From Burkholderiales bacterium (lineage in GTDB: Bacteria > Pseudomonadota > Gammaproteobacteria > Burkholderiales > Burkholderiaceae_C): a stretch of DNA of 64,000 bases. The notes under the pieces were generated by a model. That model was not told the DNA's origin. It worked only from the letters and a program-made list of their open reading frames with translations, and did no database searches. Location: contig RXJQ01000032.1 in the NCBI GenBank assembly GCA_003963115.1, positions 1 through 64,000 on the forward strand, given 5' to 3'. Positions 8,922-35,208 of the stretch are shown here, in pieces (position 1 is the stretch's first letter; the number at the start of each line of letters is the position of its first letter). A program made the translations under genes and the position numbers.

Positions 8922-9974
8922 TCAGTTGGTCTCGGTGGTCATCGTGCACTCGGGATCGGCCGCATTGAGCTTGCAGCGTATGCGCTTGAGCAGCTTGAGA
9001 CCCTGCTTGTTGTAGATGCCCTGTTCGGCCAGCTCCACCCGTGTCTGCCGCAGGAACTCGGCGTACTTGGGTGTGTTCTCGGCCGAAAGGTCCATCCACA
9101 CGGATGCCGGTAGTTCGACCTCGGCCTTGTTGATGCGGGCCAGCACATCGTCGAAGTGGGCGAACCAGTAGTGTCGCGAGACTTCGGCGAAGGCCGGTGC
9201 AAAGCGGCCGCGGTCGATGATGAGCTGGTAGCTCATGACGAGGTAAGGGAAGCGGCAGACGGCACCGTGCGGGCCCATGCCCTTGAGCAGCTCCAGCGGC
9301 TTGAAGGCGATGGCGGGCGCGGCGGCCATGTCGGCCATGCCGTTGTTGAACTTGTTGGCGAAGTTGGTCACGTCAGCCGTGACGGGCTGGGCGCCGGCCT
9401 TCTGGATCAGGTAGGCCTGGGCCTTGTCATGGTCGAAGGCGAGGATCTTCTTGCCGGCCATGGCCTCGGGCGTGTTCATGGCCTTGTCCCGCACGATGGC
9501 GTAGACGGCGCCCACATCGATCAAGCCTGCCATCTCGTACTTGCCTTGCACCACATAGCTGCTGGCCGCGGGCGAGTTGAAGATCTGGCTGGCCATGCGC
9601 ATGACCTCGTGGCCGGCTGCATGGTCGACCTTGCCCTGGCGCAGGATCAGGGCGGCGCCAAATGAATCTGTGGCGGCGGTCACGGGGTTGAAGGTCCGTG
9701 TGCGAAAGGCGGTGGCCAGCACGGCGTCGCATTGGCCGGTGCGGAAGTCGTCCACGGCCACACGCTCGTCCACATAGGACTTGAGTGCAAGACCGAAGCC
9801 CGCACCTTGCATGGCCAGGGCATAGTCCTTGGCGGCATTGAACATCTCGCCGCTGGCACCTTGCAGATCGAACACGCACAGCCTGAGGTCGGCTGCATGG
9901 GCCGGCACGGTGGCGAGCAAGGCGGCGCACGCGGTGAGGAACGTGGCCAAGGGAGCAAGCATGGTTTTCTTCAT
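8922..9974 (-). CDS. AdeT1/2-type periplasmic solute-binding protein
   Basis: An exported protein of 350 residues. A signal peptide ends near VPAHA (about 27). The mature part begins LRLCVFDLQG and contains FRTGQCDAVLATAFRTR and NFANKFNNGMADM. These match the AdeT family (described in Acinetobacter with RND efflux), which has the fold of a TRAP-like solute-binding protein. No transporter membrane subunits are adjacent, so the transport partner and ligand are unknown. The start at 9974 precedes a typical MKK signal peptide but has no clear Shine-Dalgarno; the extension to 10025 is not signal-peptide-like. The 214 bp between this stop and the polyester hydrolase start show no gene. Confidence 0.75.
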   Translation of the reverse strand: MKKTMLAPLATFLTACAALLATVPAHAADLRLCVFDLQGASGEMFNAAKDYALAMQGAGFGLALKSYVDERVAVDDFRTGQCDAVLATAFRTRTFNPVTAATDSFGAALILRQGKVDHAAGHEVMRMASQIFNSPAASSYVVQGKYEMAGLIDVGAVYAIVRDKAMNTPEAMAGKKILAFDHDKAQAYLIQKAGAQPVTADVTNFANKFNNGMADMAAAPAIAFKPLELLKGMGPHGAVCRFPYLVMSYQLIIDRGRFAPAFAEVSRHYWFAHFDDVLARINKAEVELPASVWMDLSAENTPKYAEFLRQTRVELAEQGIYNKQGLKLLKRIRCKLNAADPECTMTTETN

Positions 9975-10023
9975 GAAGCCGCACGCTACACGAAGCCGTT
10001 TCTCGCATCGAGCGGCAAGCGAC

Positions 10024-10052
10024 AAAAAGGGCCCCCGCTGTGCGAAGGCCCT
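10024..10052 (-). terminator. Terminator after the cohesin gene
   Basis: On the minus strand the arms AGGGCC and GGCCCT (loop 13) are followed by five T residues. A second perfect 7-bp dyad (CGCCAGT/ACTGGCG) lies at 10062-10083, between this hairpin and the cohesin stop codon. Confidence 0.65.
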
Positions 10053-10117
10053 CGAATCTGGCGCCAGTGGTCGCTGACTGGCGTCAGATGTCGCAAAGTG
10101 GCGCTGGGTGGTGGTCC

Positions 10118-10669
10118 TCAGCTGGTGCGGCGCCGGCTGACAAAGCCGATGCAGCCCAGACCCGCCAGCAGCAGGGCCATGCTGCCGGGTTCGGGCACGG
10201 CGGTGACCGTGGCGCTGCCATTGACGAAGTTCACGGCCACGGGGTTGCCGAGTTCATCGCCAAAGGGGAAGGAGCCCGAGGCGCTCAGCGAGATGGCCGA
10301 GGTGCCCACGCCAATGGCCTTGAAGGTCACCGAGGCGGTGGGGAAGTCGCCCTTCACGGGGGCCACGAAGGTGTTGAAGAAGATGTCGCTGACCGTGCCG
10401 GCCACCGGGTCCAGCGTGCCCGTGGAGGTGGCGAACTCCCACGATGCCGGGATGGTGATGTGGTCGAGCTTCAGCACGCTGGGGTCGAAGGCAAGGTTGT
10501 AGCCACCGCCAAAGATCTTGTTGGGAAAGCCCGTGGCATTGAGGTCGACGGCGAAGGTGTCACCCAGGTTCACATCGGTGTGCGAAGGGGTGACGGACAC
10601 GGTCTGGGCCTGGGTGGCCAGGCTGACCAGGAGGGCGGCAGAAGCCAGCAGGGTGTGATGCAGTTTCAT
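10118..10669 (-). CDS. Cohesin-domain protein with PEP-CTERM sorting signal
   Basis: A secreted protein of 183 residues. Signal peptide about 1-22, then one cohesin-type (PF00963-like) beta-sandwich from VSVTPSHTDVNLGDTFAVDL to about residue 155, with NLAFDPSVLKL and ASVTFKAIGVG as landmark strands. The C-terminus (about 157-183) is a PEP-CTERM signal: VPEPGSM, a hydrophobic helix and RRR. Exosortase should cut this signal and leave the cohesin at the outer surface or in the exopolysaccharide matrix. It is the second gene of an operon, 30 bp after the dockerin-bearing C25 protease. AAGGAG lies nine bases before the ATG. The pairing implies that it is the receptor for the protease dockerin. 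No exosortase gene is in the window. Confidence 0.88.
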   Translation of the reverse strand: MKLHHTLLASAALLVSLATQAQTVSVTPSHTDVNLGDTFAVDLNATGFPNKIFGGGYNLAFDPSVLKLDHITIPASWEFATSTGTLDPVAGTVSDIFFNTFVAPVKGDFPTASVTFKAIGVGTSAISLSASGSFPFGDELGNPVAVNFVNGSATVTAVPEPGSMALLLAGLGCIGFVSRRRTS

Positions 10670-10699
10670 GATGGGTTGCTCCTTGAGGTTGATGAAGGC

Positions 10700-13372
10700 T
10701 TACTTGCGGTTGAGCGATTCCAGGTGGAAAGCCGAGGGGCCGGGGGGCTTGCCAAAGAGCTTGGCGAACTGGCTGATGTCCAGCGCGTTGACGATGCCGT
10801 CGCCATTGAGGTCGCCGGGCACCTTGCGCTTGCCGAACTGGTTGCGCATCAGGGCCAGGTCCAGCGAGTTGACGAAGCCGTCGTTGTTGAGGTCGGCATC
10901 GCAGGCGTTGCCATAGCCGTCACCATCGGTGTCGAGCTGGTCCTTGTTGGGCACGAGGATGCAGTTGTCGCGGCTGTCGGGGATGCCGTCGCCATCGGTG
11001 TCGGTCTCGATGGCGGCGGCCTGCGTGGTGGCACCATCGGGCGAGGCCACACGCACCCACACGTTGTTGCCCTTGAAATCGCCCAGGTCGATCGAGCCAT
11101 TGCCGTTGTCGTCGATCAGGCCGCGTCCCAGCACATTGCCGTTGGCCGGATCAATGGCGATGGCGGTGATCCATTCCGGCTTGGCCAGATTGGGCGGGCA
11201 GGTCAGGCAGCCCGGCTGGAAGGGCACCTTGATCTTGGCGATGGCCCCTTCCAGCGACACGATGGGGATGCTGAACTTCCAGGGCGGGGCCACGCGCAGC
11301 TTGAGCGTGGGGTCGCCCAGCAGGTTGTAGATGTTGAGCTCCTGGCGCAGGTCGACGATGCCGGGGCGCGACTGGCTGCTGTCCAGCGGGTGCTGGTTGG
11401 CTTGCGAACCATTGGCCACATCGCTGATGTAGGTCTTGGCGTAGTTCAGCAGGTCGCCCAGGCGTTGCACCGGGCTGTTGGTGCCAAAGCTCGTGATCAG
11501 GCCTGGGAAGACGCCATCGAACAGGCCATAGGTGAGCTGGTTGTTGTCGGTGGTGCTGCTTTGGCGGCTGTCACCGATCACGGCCAGCGCGCCATCGGCC
11601 TTGCGCAGGAAGGTCTCGGCCCAGTAGACCGTGCTGGGCGACATGCCATAGCCGCTGCCGATGATGTTGCCGGGCAGGTCCACCGTCTCGTTGTCGAACA
11701 CGCCGCTGGCGCAGTTGATGCTGAACACGACGGGGAACTGGTTGTTGGTCACAGAGACCAGCGACAGGTCGCTTGTGCCGAATGAAGGGTCGCCCCAGCC
11801 ATCCCACCAGCCATGGTCACGGTGGAAGACCAGCGCCGAGCCCTGGTTGATGGCGTTGGCGATGTCGGTCTTGGTGGCGTTCCATGCAAAGCCCGGCTTG
11901 TTCAAGTCCGCAGGCATGGCCGCACCGCTGTTGTAGAACGTGGGCGTGGCCGAAGCCGCGGCCGTGTACAGGCGAGGCACGCTGTAGCCCAGGCCCACCG
12001 CATGGTCGCGTACGCGCTCGGTGACCTCGACGAACCAGCGCTGATCGGTGCTGCCGCCACCTTGAAAGTAGGACGCGAAGGTCAGCCGACTGTAGAAGTC
12101 CTGCCCGAAGATGGGATTGGGCGGCGGCGAGTTCTCGAATGCCATCACCTTGGAGACGATGGTGTTGGCCTGCGCCAGCGTGTCCACCGGGAAGCGGCCG
12201 ATGCCAAACGGCGGGATGGTCGTGGCTGTGGCGCCTGGCAGGAACTGGCCATACCAGATGTCGCCCGCGTTCTTGGCGCTGTCCCAGATGTTCTGGAGGT
12301 CGTAGTGCGTCGGCAGGTACTCCGAGTCACCCATGAACAGCACCCACTTGGGCCGCACGAGATGGCTGTTGTAGTAGCTGCTGATCCAGTTGCGGATCTG
12401 GGTATCGGTGGCGGCTGCACCGGCGCCCGTGATCTCGCTGGTCGTGACCACGCGGGTCGAGATGCCGATGGCCTCCTTGTGGGTCTTGAGCGTGTCGGCA
12501 GCGGCCTTGAAGTTGGGGTGTGTCACGATCAGGTAGCGGGCGCCGAAAATGGACGGGTCCAGCGTGATCGGTGGCGCACACGTCAGCTCGGCGACCAGCG
12601 ACTTGTTGAGCGCGAACTGCACGGCAGGCAGCAGCAGGCCTTCGATGCGCTGGTCGATGCCATCGAAGCCGGCCTTCTGTGTGGTGCCCAGCACGCCCTT
12701 GAGTTGTAGCCGGTCGTACCGGTAGCACTTGCCGGGGTGCTTGATGGTGACCACATAGCTGGGGTAGTAGGTGATGAGCTGGGCGCTGGGGTCATAGCCA
12801 TACGGGCTCAGGCGGTAGCCCTGCACATTGGCGTCACCACGGAACAGCACGCGCTGCGCGCCCTGCTGACCCGGCGACACGAAGCCCTTGGCCCAGATGT
12901 CGGCATTGAACTGGAACTTGGGCAGCTCGTGGTCACCCAGCTTGGCGGAGATGGGGGGCTGGATGGGGTAGAGCCGGGCCTGCAGGCGCTGGATGTCGCC
13001 TGCAGGCGCGATGTCGATGGTGTTGTCCTGGCCATCGACCGGCAGGGCCAGCGAGAAGCCGGCCACGGGCACTTCAGGCAGGCCGACGTCGCTGCTGTCC
13101 TGCCCTGATGAGCCAGGCGCGCCGCCTTGTGCAAAGCGCTGGAAGACGCCGCTGGGTGTCTCCACGCTGGACAAGGATGGCTTGGGCACGGTCACGCGCA
13201 GCACGGTCTGGTCGGCAGTGATCGACACGGTGTCGATGCGCAGGCCGGGTGCCGTTTGCGCCATCGAGGTCTGGCTCAGAGCCAGGTGCGCCAGCAGCAC
13301 GATGCTGCCCTGTGCGCAGGCCCGCAGCGGCTGCCGAAGCAGGCTGGGGGCCTTGAAGTTCATCAGGTTCAT
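10700..13372 (-). CDS. Secreted gingipain-like C25 cysteine protease with dockerin
   Basis: An 890-residue exported protein. A signal peptide (about 1-39, ending LSQTSMAQ) is followed by an N-terminal propeptide-like region and a peptidase C25 domain (about 280-690) starting near [16 protein letters not shown]. The catalytic dyad is His520 in FHRDHGWW and Cys554 in [11 protein letters not shown]; the 34-residue spacing is close to the 33 of gingipain R. Near the C-terminus are two thrombospondin-type-3 calcium repeats ([18 protein letters not shown], from about 791) and then a type I dockerin (about 827-875) with two F-hand loops, [12 protein letters not shown] and [12 protein letters not shown], in which all ligand positions 1/3/5/9/12 are conserved. 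There is no PEP-CTERM signal of its own. The start at 13372 has GGAGG five bases upstream. It is followed by the cohesin gene in the same operon. Confidence 0.88.
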
Positions 13373-13592
13373 GGTCGCCTCCAAAAAGCGGTCTCACAAC
13401 AGCACCGGGCCGAAGTGGCACGATGCGCAAGCGAAGGCTAGGCAGGAGGGGGAAATGGGACAAGGTGTCCGCTTGCCCGAGTCCCTAAGGGTGGGGGGCG
13501 GTGCTCACGGCCTTAGGGGGAAAGACGAAGGTCATGTCGGAAATGAGAAAATTCCTGCTTTCGGCTGTTCAGCCTGTTCACATTCGACCGCC

Positions 13593-14648
13593 ATGACCGC
13601 TTCCACGCCCTCCACCCTGGCCACCACGCTGGTTTTGACCCGCCCCGATGACTGGCACCTGCATGTGCGTGACGGCGCGGCCATGGCCTCCGTGGTGCCG
13701 GCCACGGCGCGGCAGTTCGCGCGGGCCATCGTCATGCCCAATCTGCGTCCACCCGTGACCACGGCCGAGCAGGCTAAAGGCTACCGCGAGCGCATCCTGG
13801 CCGCCGTGCCCGCCGGCGTGAAGTTCGAGCCCCTGATGGTGCTCTACCTGACCGACAACACCCCTGCCGAAGAGGCCGCCGAGGCCAAGGCCATGGGCGC
13901 CGTGGCCTTCAAGCTCTACCCGGCCGGTGCCACCACCAACAGCGATGCCGGCGTGACCGACCTGCGCAAGACCTACAAGGTGCTCGAAGCCATGCAGCAC
14001 GAAGGCCTGGTGCTGTGTGTACACGGCGAGGTGACCGAGGCGGAAGTGGACGTGTTTGACCGCGAGAAGGCCTTCATCGACGACAAGCTGATCCCGCTGC
14101 GCCGTGACTTTCCTGAACTGAAGATCGTGTTCGAGCACATCACGACCAAGGAAGCCGCGCAGTATGTGAGCGAGGCTGATCGCTTCGTGGGCGCCACCAT
14201 CACGCCGCAGCACCTGCTCTACAACCGCAATGCCATCTTCATGGGCGGTGTGCGCCCGCACTACTACTGCCTGCCCATCCTCAAGCGCGAAGAGCACCGC
14301 GTGGCCCTGGTGCAGGCGGCCACCAGCGGCTCGCCCAAGTTCTTCCTGGGCACCGACAGCGCGCCCCACGCATCGAACCTCAAAGAGCACGCATCGGGCT
14401 GCGCGGGTTGCTACACCGCGCCGTGCGCCATCGAGCTGTATGCCGAAGCCTTCGAGGCCGCCGGTGCGCTCGACAAGCTCGAGGCCTTCGCCAGCTTCTA
14501 CGGGGCCGACTACTACGGCCTGCCGCGCAACACCGACAAGATCACGCTGAAACGTGAAGACTGGGTGGTGCCGGAGACACTGCCTTTTGGCGAAACCGTG
14601 ATCAAGCCGCTGCGTGGCGGCGAGACCCTGCACTGGCGCATGGTCTGA
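13593..14648 (+). CDS. pyrC: Dihydroorotase
   Basis: Catalyses the reversible cyclisation of N-carbamoyl-aspartate to dihydroorotate in pyrimidine synthesis; cytoplasmic zinc enzyme. The 351-residue length matches the class II (E. coli PyrC) type. Landmarks: metal-binding [30 protein letters not shown] carrying the bridging lysine, [22 protein letters not shown], and LGTDSAPHA with the catalytic Asp. The start at 13593 is chosen on alignment to the family; the in-frame extension upstream runs antisense over the protease gene and is spurious. The stop codon abuts the stop of the convergent TetR gene with no spacer. Confidence 0.96.
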
Positions 14649-21573: not shown

Positions 21574-22224
21574 TCAGCTGCGGCGGCGGGCCACGAAGGC
21601 CATCACGCCCAGGCTGCACAGCACCAGGGCCATGCTGCCGGGTTCCGGCACGGCGGGTGTCACCGCCGTGATGTGCAGACCAAAGGTGTCGCTCAGCGTG
21701 TCGGCGGCGTAGTTCTGTCCACCGCTGTAGAGGGCCACGGCCTGTGCAGCTGGCAGCGCGCCGGTCGGCAGTTGCAGCGAGCCGGCATTGCTGGCGTCAC
21801 CGTTTTGCTCCAGGGCCAGCCAGTAGCTGCCGGCACCGATGCTCCAGTTCAGGTTGCTCAGGCCGTTCCAGCCGTCACCGTTGTAGGTGGCGGTGGCCTG
21901 GAATAACTGGCCATGCTGGTCGGCGTTCCAGTTCAGCGCGGGCAGGTTGCTGCCGCTGTTGCCGTACAGCGCGATGGTGAAGGTCTTGCCGATGTCGTTG
22001 GCGCTGTCGTTGGACAGCACATAGGCCAGCACGCTGTCGATCTGCGTGCTTGAAGCGACCGTGAACTTCTCGGCCAGCCAGTCGTTGCTGTCCAGTGTGT
22101 TCGAACCGAACAGCGAACCGCTGGGAACCTGCGTGTTCACGACGTCATAAGCCTGGGCCTGCGTGGCGGTGAGGGCCACGAAGGAGGCCGCAGCCAGCGC
22201 CTTGAGGATGATCTTGCCTTGCAT
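21574..22224 (-). CDS. PEP-CTERM sorting domain protein of unknown function
   Basis: An exported protein of 216 residues: signal peptide (about 1-25), a jelly-roll-like beta-rich region ([20 protein letters not shown], then [11 protein letters not shown]) and a C-terminal VPEPGSM, hydrophobic helix and RRR exosortase signal. The middle resembles choice-of-anchor type beta-sandwiches common among PEP-CTERM proteins; no enzymatic motif is seen. It is the third gene of an operon behind the metallophosphoesterase (26-bp gap), with AGGAG upstream of its ATG. It probably decorates the same surface structure as the other PEP-CTERM proteins. Confidence 0.85.
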
Positions 22225-29370: not shown

Positions 29371-30834
29371 ATGAGCTTTGCTCTGCGCCCCCTGGTCGCC
29401 CGTCTGGCCGGCCTGTTTGTCCTGACTTCGGCGATGGGCAGCGCCCATGCGGCCTTCGAGTTGATCGGCATCGGTACGCTTGGCGGCACCACGGACCTCT
29501 CCGGTCTGACGGGCACGCTCGAAAACGGCAACCCTGCCAGTATCCTCGGTGGCATGGGTTCGGGCCTGGCCTGGGCAGGCGGCAACACCTTCCTGGCCTT
29601 GCCTGACCGCGGCCCCAATGCCGTGGCTTATACCGGTGGCTCGGCCATCGACAACACCACCTCCTACATCGCCCGCTTCAACACCGTCACCTTGGACGTG
29701 ACAGCCACGCCTTCGGCCGTGCCGGCAGGCACGGTGCCCTACACCGTCACGCCCACGCTGCAAAGCACCACCCTGCTGTGGAGCAGCACGCCGCTGACCT
29801 ATGGCAGCACCGCAGGCCTGCCGAGCGCTGTGCCATCCCAGAACACCGCCGGCAAGTACTACTTCACCGGCCGCTCGGACGGCTTTGTGGCCGGCAGCTC
29901 CAGCAACGTCAACGATGCGCGCCTGGATCCTGAATCCATCCGCGTCTCCAAGGACGGCAAGAGCATCTACGTGTCCGACGAGTACGGCCCCTACGTCTAC
30001 CAGTTCGACCGCAGCACGGGTGAGCGCACCCGCAGCTTCACGCTGCCCAGCAACCTGGCCGTGCCCAACGCCAATGCCGTCGGCGCCACCGAGATCAGCG
30101 GCAACACCGTGGGCCGCGTGGCCAACAAGGGCATGGAAGGCCTGGCTATCAGCCCTGACGGCACCAAGCTCTTCGGCATCATGCAAAGCTCCCTGCTGCA
30201 AGATGGCGGCGACACCTCGGCCGGCAAGACCAACCGCATCGTCCAGATCGACATCGCGACAGGCGCCACCAAGGAGTTTGCCGTCAGCAACCAGATCAAT
30301 GGCAAGGGCTACAACAACAGCGAACTCGTGGCCATCAACGACCACACGCTGGCCTTCCTGCCGCGCGACGGCAAGGGCCTGGGCGATGGCACCAGCGCCG
30401 TCATCAAGCAGATGTGGTCCATCGACCTGACCGGTGCGACCGACGTGACCGCACTCAGCGGTGATGCCGCCCTGCAAGGTGCTTTGCTGGCCAAAGCTCA
30501 ACTGGTGGACTTCGTTGCGCTGCTCAAGGGCGCTGGCATTGCCGACACGCAGATCCCGTCCAAGCTGGAAGGGCTCTCTTTCGGGCAGGACATCGTGGAT
30601 GGTGGCGTGACCTACCACACGCTCTACCTGGCCAACGACAACGACTTCGTGCCGGGCACCTCGGGCGACAACAAGTTCTTCGCATTCCGCTTCACCGACG
30701 CCGATTTGCTGGCCAAGGGCGTGAGCGGTGGTTTGCAACTGCAGTCCATCAATGCCGTGCCCGAGCCCGAGAGCTACGCGCTGGCGCTGGTGGCATTGGG
30801 CTTTCTGGGCTTGGTGCGCCGTCGTCGCGCCTGA
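29371..30834 (+). CDS. Phytase-like esterase domain protein with PEP-CTERM signal
   Basis: An exported protein of 487 residues. A signal peptide (to about 28) precedes a six-bladed propeller-like 'esterase-like activity of phytase' domain (PF13449 type): GMGSGLAWAGGNTFLALPDR, DPESIRVSKDGKSIYVSDEY, KGMEGLAISPDG and KLEGLSFG. The C-terminus VPEPESYALALVALGFLGL plus RRRR is an exosortase sorting signal. The family contains proteins acting on phosphoesters, but substrates are poorly known. It stands alone, with a single CTGTCAC half-site 64 bp upstream that I do not count as a Pho box. Confidence 0.9.
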   Translation: MSFALRPLVARLAGLFVLTSAMGSAHAAFELIGIGTLGGTTDLSGLTGTLENGNPASILGGMGSGLAWAGGNTFLALPDRGPNAVAYTGGSAIDNTTSYIARFNTVTLDVTATPSAVPAGTVPYTVTPTLQSTTLLWSSTPLTYGSTAGLPSAVPSQNTAGKYYFTGRSDGFVAGSSSNVNDARLDPESIRVSKDGKSIYVSDEYGPYVYQFDRSTGERTRSFTLPSNLAVPNANAVGATEISGNTVGRVANKGMEGLAISPDGTKLFGIMQSSLLQDGGDTSAGKTNRIVQIDIATGATKEFAVSNQINGKGYNNSELVAINDHTLAFLPRDGKGLGDGTSAVIKQMWSIDLTGATDVTALSGDAALQGALLAKAQLVDFVALLKGAGIADTQIPSKLEGLSFGQDIVDGGVTYHTLYLANDNDFVPGTSGDNKFFAFRFTDADLLAKGVSGGLQLQSINAVPEPESYALALVALGFLGLVRRRRA

Positions 30835-34608: not shown

Positions 34609-35208
34609 ATGCAGTCGATCAAACACGCCGCGCTGGCCACCGTGCTGGCCTCCCTGTCTCTGGCCGCACAGGCCACTTCCGTCAACTTGGCGGCCGACGG
34701 TCAATGGCAAGCCTTCGGTGTCGATGACCAAGCCAGCCTCAGCCAAGGCACCGAGTGGATTGACAACAACTACAGCAACTCGGCTGGCTACGGCACGCCC
34801 CTGAGCTTCAGCTTCACCGTTGACGCGGGCTTTCAGGGCACGCTGACCGTGGTCGATGCCGACCTGGCCGGTGACACCTTCAAGGTCTTCAACCAGGGCG
34901 CGCTGCTGGGCAACACCAGCGCCGTGCCGGCCGCGCAGTATGGCAGCACCCCCGATGTGGGCTACGACTACGACGCGGCCCTGGCCGATCCGTCCTTCAG
35001 CCGCGGTGTGTTCACGCTGGGCGCTGGCAGCTATGTGATCAGCGGTGCCTTGCTGCAGTCGGTGAGCCTGGGTGCATCACCACTCAATGCCACCGGTGGC
35101 GCCGTGAAGCTGAGCGTGAGCGCCGTGCCTGAACCTGCTTCGGCCGCACTGGTCCTGGCCGCACTGGGCATCACCTGGCTGCTGTCACGTCGCACCTCGA
35201 CACGTTGA
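34609..35208 (+). CDS. PEP-CTERM sorting domain protein of unknown function
   Basis: An exported protein of 199 residues: signal peptide (to about 22), a beta-rich domain (SFTVDAGFQGTLTVVDADLA, then FKVFNQGALLG) and the C-terminal VPEPASAALVLAALG, hydrophobic helix and SRR exosortase signal. No catalytic motif is recognised. It is followed after 45 bp by a secreted 5'-nucleotidase in the same direction, so the two may be co-expressed. The 143 bp between slmA and this gene show no clear promoter. Confidence 0.83.
   Translation: MQSIKHAALATVLASLSLAAQATSVNLAADGQWQAFGVDDQASLSQGTEWIDNNYSNSAGYGTPLSFSFTVDAGFQGTLTVVDADLAGDTFKVFNQGALLGNTSAVPAAQYGSTPDVGYDYDAALADPSFSRGVFTLGAGSYVISGALLQSVSLGASPLNATGGAVKLSVSAVPEPASAALVLAALGITWLLSRRTSTR

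Follow-up and report, generated by a model that had tools for sequence, protein, structure and literature searches.

The window analysed here, a 64,000-nucleotide stretch of contig RXJQ01000032.1 from a Burkholderiales bacterium (GenBank assembly GCA_003963115.1), carries on its reverse strand two adjoining, co-directional genes separated by 30 bp. The upstream gene encodes an 890-residue gingipain-like cysteine protease of family C25 that ends in a dockerin (the "plug" below), and the downstream gene encodes a 183-residue protein composed of a single cohesin domain (the "socket") and a PEP-CTERM sorting signal. The original prediction, made from the sequence of the window, had read the cohesin as a socket for the dockerin-tagged protease; its coordinates, strand and gap for the two genes are all borne out.

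The protease matches Peptidase_C25 (8.8e-51) and Dockerin_1 PF00404 (8.1e-9, 36 bits vs. a cut-off of 22.9) in Pfam, as well as two domains absent from the domain list of the original prediction, TSP_3 PF02412 and Propeptide_C25 PF08126, the latter just over its cut-off (22.4 vs. 22 bits); none of its six NCBIfam matches is over cut-off. Profile and structure searches return the catalytic and prodomain structures of RgpB and Kgp, and the protein is a gingipain-type zymogen. His520 and Cys554, which by analogy with the gingipains we take to be the catalytic dyad, are each invariant, as are all ten ligand positions checked in the two F-hand repeats of the dockerin (D-x-N-x-D-x3-N-x2-D) across 24 dockerin-bearing rows; the predicted dyad and the predicted complete type I dockerin both stand. 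The thrombospondin type 3 (TSP3) stretch ahead of the dockerin is likely a calcium-binding spacer. The window protease thus resembles RgpB and Kgp in its prodomain and catalytic-domain matches and its His/Cys dyad, but differs from them at the C-terminal end, where TSP3 repeats and a dockerin stand in place of the type IX secretion tail of Bacteroidota gingipains. No type IX C-terminal sorting domain is found among the Pfam and NCBIfam matches of the protease at E up to 1. A search of the genome for SprA, a component of type IX secretion, gave no match, and the control searches were equally silent.

Both domains of the small protein exceed the curated Pfam cut-offs, the PEP-CTERM signal (PF07589, 2.3e-6, 27.9 vs. 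20.7 bits) and, marginally, the cohesin (PF00963, 7.7e-6, 26.6 vs. 24.1 bits). Among its 13 NCBIfam matches, only the general PEP-CTERM domain model TIGR02595 is over cut-off. A phmmer search of PDB sequences with the single cohesin sequence was weak (best E 0.11, to a scaffoldin cohesin), and a 29-row cohesin profile reached the same chain at E 0.0036. Judged by sequence, the window cohesin lies at the edge of the cohesin family. Because the Pfam score is near the cut-off and the PDB sequence search is weak, the fold was tested by a Foldseek search of the PDB with the predicted model. The best match has E 1.4e-11, with target template modelling (TM) scores up to 0.83. The titles of 47 of the 50 PDB chains shown include "cohesin" or "Coh"; the remaining three (4fl4_I, 4fl4_C and 3kcp_A) are Clostridium thermocellum cellulosome components. 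The protein thus scores as a cohesin by profile and in its predicted fold, as had been proposed. A similar fold is shared with the non-cellulosomal cohesin of Clostridium perfringens glycoside hydrolases (PDB 2vo8 is among the Foldseek matches); there the cohesin is a module of the hydrolase, whereas in the window it is a free-standing protein with its own sorting signal.

Like the PEP-CTERM/exosortase proteins described in the main text of PMC1569441, which contains neither "cohesin" nor "dockerin", the small protein has a signal-peptide-like start, a PEP motif, a hydrophobic helix and a basic, arginine-rich C-terminal end, and its genome encodes exosortases. Residue A21 is invariant across the 29 rows of an alignment, and the PEP-CTERM helix is predicted at residues 238-259 of the one-chain AlphaFold2 model described below. 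From these features, which are those expected of an exosortase substrate, we infer that the protein would be cleaved by an exosortase. An exosortase had been invoked by the original prediction, and four near full-length exosortase genes are found in the genome (PF09721, E 6.2e-67 to 1.9e-59), together with 53 matches to the PEP-CTERM signal at E up to 0.1, of which 49 exceed the cut-off, and the type II secretion secretin gene gspD.

The source genome, that of a water bacterium, is 5.38 Mb in size and 99.6% complete. One dockerin, one cohesin and one C25 gene were found in it, the dockerin and C25 domains belonging to the same gene, which adjoins the cohesin gene; we estimate that two single genes in a set of about 5,000 would fall side by side by chance roughly once in 2,500 cases. 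No second cohesin gene was found in a search of this genome with a cohesin plus PEP-CTERM alignment followed by a Pfam check. Among the 61 alignment matches, apart from the window gene, 59 begin at position 81 or later; the other (G000:C3:21083-21718) aligns from position 21, yet in Pfam it is PEP-CTERM alone, and it was rejected as a second cohesin. No second C25 gene and no second dockerin gene were found in the genome. The next dockerin profile matches are at E 0.03 and 0.59, and the protein at the former (G000:C56:54392), filamentous-haemagglutinin-like by eye, was not counted as a dockerin. This bears on the possibility that the cohesin recruits several dockerin proteins and serves as a small scaffold. 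The original prediction had suggested that other dockerin proteins of this genome use the same socket, which is not borne out by the genome search. Some support for a shared socket comes from a relative, Roseateles violae, whose genome holds a C25 pair and also a second dockerin protein, belonging to the same type (locus L108), with no cohesin gene in the 9 kb around it. For the window, we regard a shared socket as quite improbable.

The pairing can be followed in other genomes. A scan of genome contigs for C25 relatives returned 39 loci. A cohesin gene lies downstream in all 31 dockerin-bearing C25 relatives and in none of the six relatives without a dockerin (L159, L160 and L162-L165, with only about 0.9 kb of downstream sequence at L160); two loci, L157 (cut off inside the gene) and L166 (a weak dockerin match, cut off at the contig end), were left out of this count. 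Eight further dockerin-C25 loci from the family search described below all have the cohesin; six of these were taken as repeat records of the 31, giving 34 distinct pairs with the window included. An upstream pyrC gene is common to the window and 16 of the 33 other pairs. Four of the 33 are cut off upstream, one of which, L131, has the window's downstream neighbour. For thirteen of the 34 distinct pairs, from Roseateles, Rubrivivax and others, the flanks examined contain none of four genes that neighbour the pair in the window; the pair therefore outlives its surroundings. The intergenic gap, with start codons chosen by script, is -4 to 114 bp in 34 of the 40 entries scored, a count that takes in the six repeat records and leaves out the window pair (30 bp by eye). 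At one locus, L126, two near-identical dockerin-cohesin pairs stand in tandem, with dockerin and cohesin distances both of 0.01.

Pairing of this kind also extends beyond C25 proteases. When 329 genomes of the family were scanned, 39 had a PF00963 match and 69 a PF00404 match; both counts are lower bounds, the former because the scan missed real cases, the window's own cohesin among them. From the family lists, 57 neighbourhoods were picked by hand, many for an already listed cohesin match, and in these a cohesin neighbour, as judged by a home-made profile, stands beside 45 of 54 dockerin open reading frames (ORFs). Among loci fetched for the dockerin alone, with no PF00963 match listed there, the proportion is 15 of 20. 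One of the 45, L085, was counted on a weak 16-bit match, though a strong cohesin ORF (96.6 bits) was found beside it. The cohesin profile was trained on these very neighbours, and Pfam provides the independent check. After seven of 51 candidate cohesins with odd or fused architecture were removed, PEP-CTERM was matched at E up to 0.1 in 40 of the remaining 44 and PF00963 in 33. The cargo of the 54 dockerin ORFs is diverse, with C25 (10), GH10 (8) and M12B reprolysin (5) among the enzymes, and ten cargos scanned singly include a metallophosphoesterase, a phospholipase C, a glucose/sorbosone dehydrogenase, a metallo-beta-lactamase fold and a VWA protein. At the level of the order, a search found dockerins at 1e-4 in 21 of 379 genomes (30 places listed), and 20 neighbourhoods were fetched, very long frames being mostly left out. 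Within this family the pairing of dockerin and cohesin is a strong pattern; beyond the family it becomes thin.

To compare the divergence of plugs and sockets, we used the 39 of the 45 pairs with a cohesin score over 60, six being dropped. The dockerin and cohesin distance matrices are correlated with r = 0.83, and with r = 0.65 after cargo distance was regressed out; for the 643 comparisons in which the cargo families differ it is 0.70, and in no case did 5,000 permutations yield a value as high. For 36 of the 39 pairs, the nearest cohesin from another genome and another cargo family had a dockerin that ranked within the closest quarter. For cargos that differ within one genome, six of eight comparisons show dockerin distances of 0.61-0.81 and cohesin distances of 0.87-0.93 (overall medians 0.68 and 0.87), and the other two are closer (dockerin 0.21 with cohesin 0.67, and dockerin 0.48 with cohesin 0.56). 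Clustering into three or four groups gave low agreement between dockerins and cohesins (adjusted Rand 0.20 and 0.18), and into five or six groups 0.89; the distance tests were relied on in preference to clustering. By these sequence distances, cohesin type follows dockerin type across cargo, a pattern that fits private sockets.

The same data bear on whether the two proteins bind at all. The genes might be co-inherited without any binding, in which case the cohesin-like protein would be a matrix component in its own right and the dockerin a calcium-stabilised tail. Adjacent genes have a common history and the Pfam cohesin match is marginal, both of which such a view could draw on. It is at odds, however, with the presence of the cohesin beside all 31 dockerin-bearing C25 relatives and its absence beside the six without the dockerin, with the match of plug and socket types across unrelated cargo, with the full conservation of the calcium ligands and with the cohesin fold of the predicted model. 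We consider the absence of binding very improbable.

The stop codon of the protease and the start codon of the cohesin gene are in one frame, so that with the stop read as a residue, the dockerin, a linker and the cohesin form a single chain. An AlphaFold2 model of this chain, built from 12 such rows, has a mean predicted local distance difference test (pLDDT) of 77.5 and a predicted TM score (pTM) of 0.67, with pLDDT of 70-86 in the dockerin blocks, 87-96 in the cohesin blocks and below 50 in the linker. For an undocked case we roughly calculate a pTM near 0.5. In a model of the full-length protease without the cohesin, the dockerin residues have pLDDT of 41-49 vs. 70-86 in the one-chain model, the alignments behind the two models being different (27 and 12 rows, respectively). 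Read from pTM and dockerin confidence alone, the one-chain model is consistent with docking.

Taken together, we think it probable that the two genes encode a dedicated plug and an exosortase-sorted socket that keep the protease near the cell. The domains, the gene pairing and the matched divergence of plug and socket form the basis of this reading in the sequences, and docking of the dockerin on the cohesin is supported by the predicted model; calcium-dependent binding in the organism, the final location and the route across the outer membrane are what we infer from these. The cohesin protein would be exported and then held in the inner membrane via its PEP-CTERM helix until one of the cell's exosortases processes it and hands it on, either to the surface of the cell or to its exopolysaccharide matrix. 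The protease would be exported as a gingipain-type zymogen, possibly crossing the outer membrane by type II secretion, whose secretin is present, and its calcium-filled dockerin would bind the one cohesin that the genome searches revealed, which would keep the enzyme close to the cell and stop it from diffusing away. Similar one-socket-one-plug pairs may serve other secreted enzymes in this bacterial family. The original proposal of a cohesin socket for a dockerin protease is thus upheld, its domains being confirmed, the cohesin fold supported by the predicted structure and the pairing holding in all 31 dockerin-bearing C25 relatives, and it is widened.

Several observations weigh against this reading. 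Nine of the 54 dockerin ORFs have no cohesin neighbour, although in one of the nine, L090, a cohesin-like stretch and a PEP-CTERM match lie in the same long frame. Eleven of the 44 candidate cohesins lack a PF00963 match at E up to 0.1 and depend on the home-made profile, and of nine neighbours fetched blind to the cohesin, PEP-CTERM reaches E 0.01 in all nine and PF00963 in four. Outside the family, a pair is present in four of the 20 fetched dockerin neighbourhoods and missing from 16; the four are L170 (regarded as a repeat record of L154), L171 with M12B cargo, L174 with a metallophosphoesterase and L175 with a GDSL lipase, where Pfam detects no cohesin in the partner protein. Part of the match between plug and socket types may be linkage, because the two genes are physically linked and share a common history, and species relatedness is left in the comparison. 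The one-chain model draws on 12 rows and contains an artificial linker, the mean pLDDT of the five runs ranges from 77.5 down to 61.7, and AlphaFold2 probably docks most type I pairs anyway. Finally, a scan of 9900-13700 for sigma-70 promoters and terminators found nothing, and hence no signal of co-transcription.

It is also conceivable, though we hold it to be unlikely, that the pair binds but the cohesin is an export escort or latency partner in the periplasm or the type II secretion system, and that exosortase cleavage frees a soluble cohesin-protease complex. The presence of the secretin in this genome and of secretins with a C-terminal cohesin in two family members scanned would suit an escort, as would the zymogen nature of C25 with its own prodomain. 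The cargo families are unrelated, however, which a tether fits better than an enzyme-specific escort, and a sorting signal would seem superfluous for an escort.

A dockerin-tagged C25 peptidase with a multi-cohesin scaffoldin is already known. In the passages of PMC8542988 on Ca. Stygibacter (Cloacimonadota), a dockerin-tagged gingipain-like C25 peptidase is proposed, as here, to dock on a cell-attached cohesin protein; that protein is a 3,755-residue scaffoldin with tandem cohesins and carbohydrate-binding modules, attached via a CTD and shared by several enzymes, whereas the window has a two-gene unit with a 183-residue single-cohesin PEP-CTERM protein. The hypothetical "planctosome" of freshwater Planctomycetes is likewise a non-cellulosomal cohesin/dockerin complex proposed for extracellular peptidases, with TSP3 in its anchoring protein; it differs in its 2,210-residue LTD anchor and its cohesin-dockerin adaptor binding M12B and M14 peptidases, and the sections of PMC6461901 that describe it mention no exosortase signal. 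Anaerobic methanotrophic archaea have abundant non-cellulosomal cohesins and dockerins alongside exosortase/archaeosortase genes, but in the relevant part of the review PMC5244752 the two systems are not paired, unlike in the window unit, and the function is left open. The cellulosomes of Clostridium and Ruminococcus share with the window both domains, the fold, the calcium loops and the arrangement in which the enzyme has the plug and an anchored protein the socket. Unlike them, the window's genome has one cohesin and no multi-cohesin scaffoldin that we could find, the anchor is PEP-CTERM, and the only dockerin protein found is a protease, not a carbohydrate-active enzyme, though GH10 is among the dockerin cargo in relatives. 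In the open-access literature we found no paper joining PEP-CTERM with dockerin or "cohesin domain" and none joining gingipain and C25 with Betaproteobacteria, and dockerin and exosortase occur together only in the review PMC5244752, as far as its relevant part goes. As far as these searches show, what is new is the single-cohesin, putatively exosortase-sorted partner encoded in a conserved unit of two genes, together with its occurrence beside a range of enzymes.

More generally, and with somewhat less assurance, we favour the view that exosortase-using Burkholderiales display exoenzymes at the surface through cohesin-PEP-CTERM sockets and their matching dockerin plugs, with a private pair for each enzyme. 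The match would hold across unrelated enzymes (proteases, xylanases, lipases and phosphoesterases), different specificity classes would coexist in one genome, and here the system would tether a gingipain without type IX secretion. This would link two open questions, the role of cohesin and dockerin outside cellulosomes and the purpose of most PEP-CTERM proteins, and would bring both within reach of experiment, using two small soluble domains and a single gene deletion in a genus of which some members are in culture. If true, this view would account for the way in which environmental Gram-negative bacteria retain hydrolases nearby in the absence of type IX secretion, and it would supply protein display with a naturally occurring collection of matching plug-socket classes.

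Table 1. Features of the two-gene unit (window coordinates)
Feature	Position	Strand	Basis
Cohesin + PEP-CTERM protein, 183 residues	10118..10669	-	Single cohesin; Pfam
PEP-CTERM sorting signal: VPEP, hydrophobic helix, RRR	10127..10201	-	PF07589
Cohesin domain	10205..10594	-	PF00963; cohesin fold in model
Signal-peptide-like N terminus, residues 1-22	10604..10669	-	By eye
Shine-Dalgarno-like AAGGAG ahead of cohesin gene	10679..10684	-	By eye
C25 gingipain-like protease, C-terminal dockerin, 890 residues	10700..13372	-	Pfam
Tail PGPSAFH behind dockerin	10724..10744	-	PGPSA invariant in nine aligned rows
Type I dockerin, residues 826-875	10748..10897	-	PF00404
Second F-hand loop	10778..10813	-	Sequence; ligand positions invariant in 24/24 dockerin rows
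First F-hand loop	10859..10894	-	Sequence; ligand positions invariant in 24/24 dockerin rows
Thrombospondin type 3 repeats	10898..11008	-	PF02412 2.1e-8; COMP/thrombospondin matches
C25 catalytic domain, residues 280-692	11297..12535	-	Pfam; Foldseek 1cvr RgpB E 6.4e-23, target TM 0.81
Cys554	11711..11713	-	Invariant in 27/27 C25 rows
His520	11813..11815	-	Invariant in 27/27 C25 rows
Gingipain-type prodomain, residues 54-211	12740..13213	-	PF08126 7.3e-5; Kgp/RgpB prodomain profile match; Foldseek 4ief_A/C, 5mun

No sigma-54 promoter site lies near the start of the pair, nor is there an excess of such sites within the window, and a plasmid collection searched with the cohesin gave no match. 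Three further PEP-CTERM signals are present in the window, at 21580-21654 (-), 30754-30828 (+) and 35122-35193 (+), and of the four near full-length exosortase genes, three sit in a 51-kb span of a single contig (G000:C21:93706-144702). Two proteins matched in the C25 search, L108:4121-7327 (-) and L118:3641-6967 (-), were rejected as distant C25 proteins; both are DUF11-repeat proteins matched via a TSP3-dockerin-PGPSG tail much like that of the window protease. At four loci (L098, L099, L100 and L115) the dockerin gene has a gene for a cohesin-like protein 1.2-1.5 kb upstream. In L098 and L100 this protein continues for about 100 residues beyond its PEP-CTERM-like stretch, and L098 has a hydrolase-like gene between the two. 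The two cohesin-bearing secretins (PF00263) are L030:1405-3303 (-) and L011:1-1887 (+), with C-terminal cohesin matches of 2e-7 and 2.4e-13, and several other cohesin matches of 800-1000 residues in the family scan may be of the same kind; dockerin cargo could in principle meet a cohesin at the secretin. Cohesin and dockerin also occur together in single long frames at G069:C176 (7160 residues), G318:C2 (7560 residues) and G051:C67 (992 residues), which are perhaps adhesins that link to one another.

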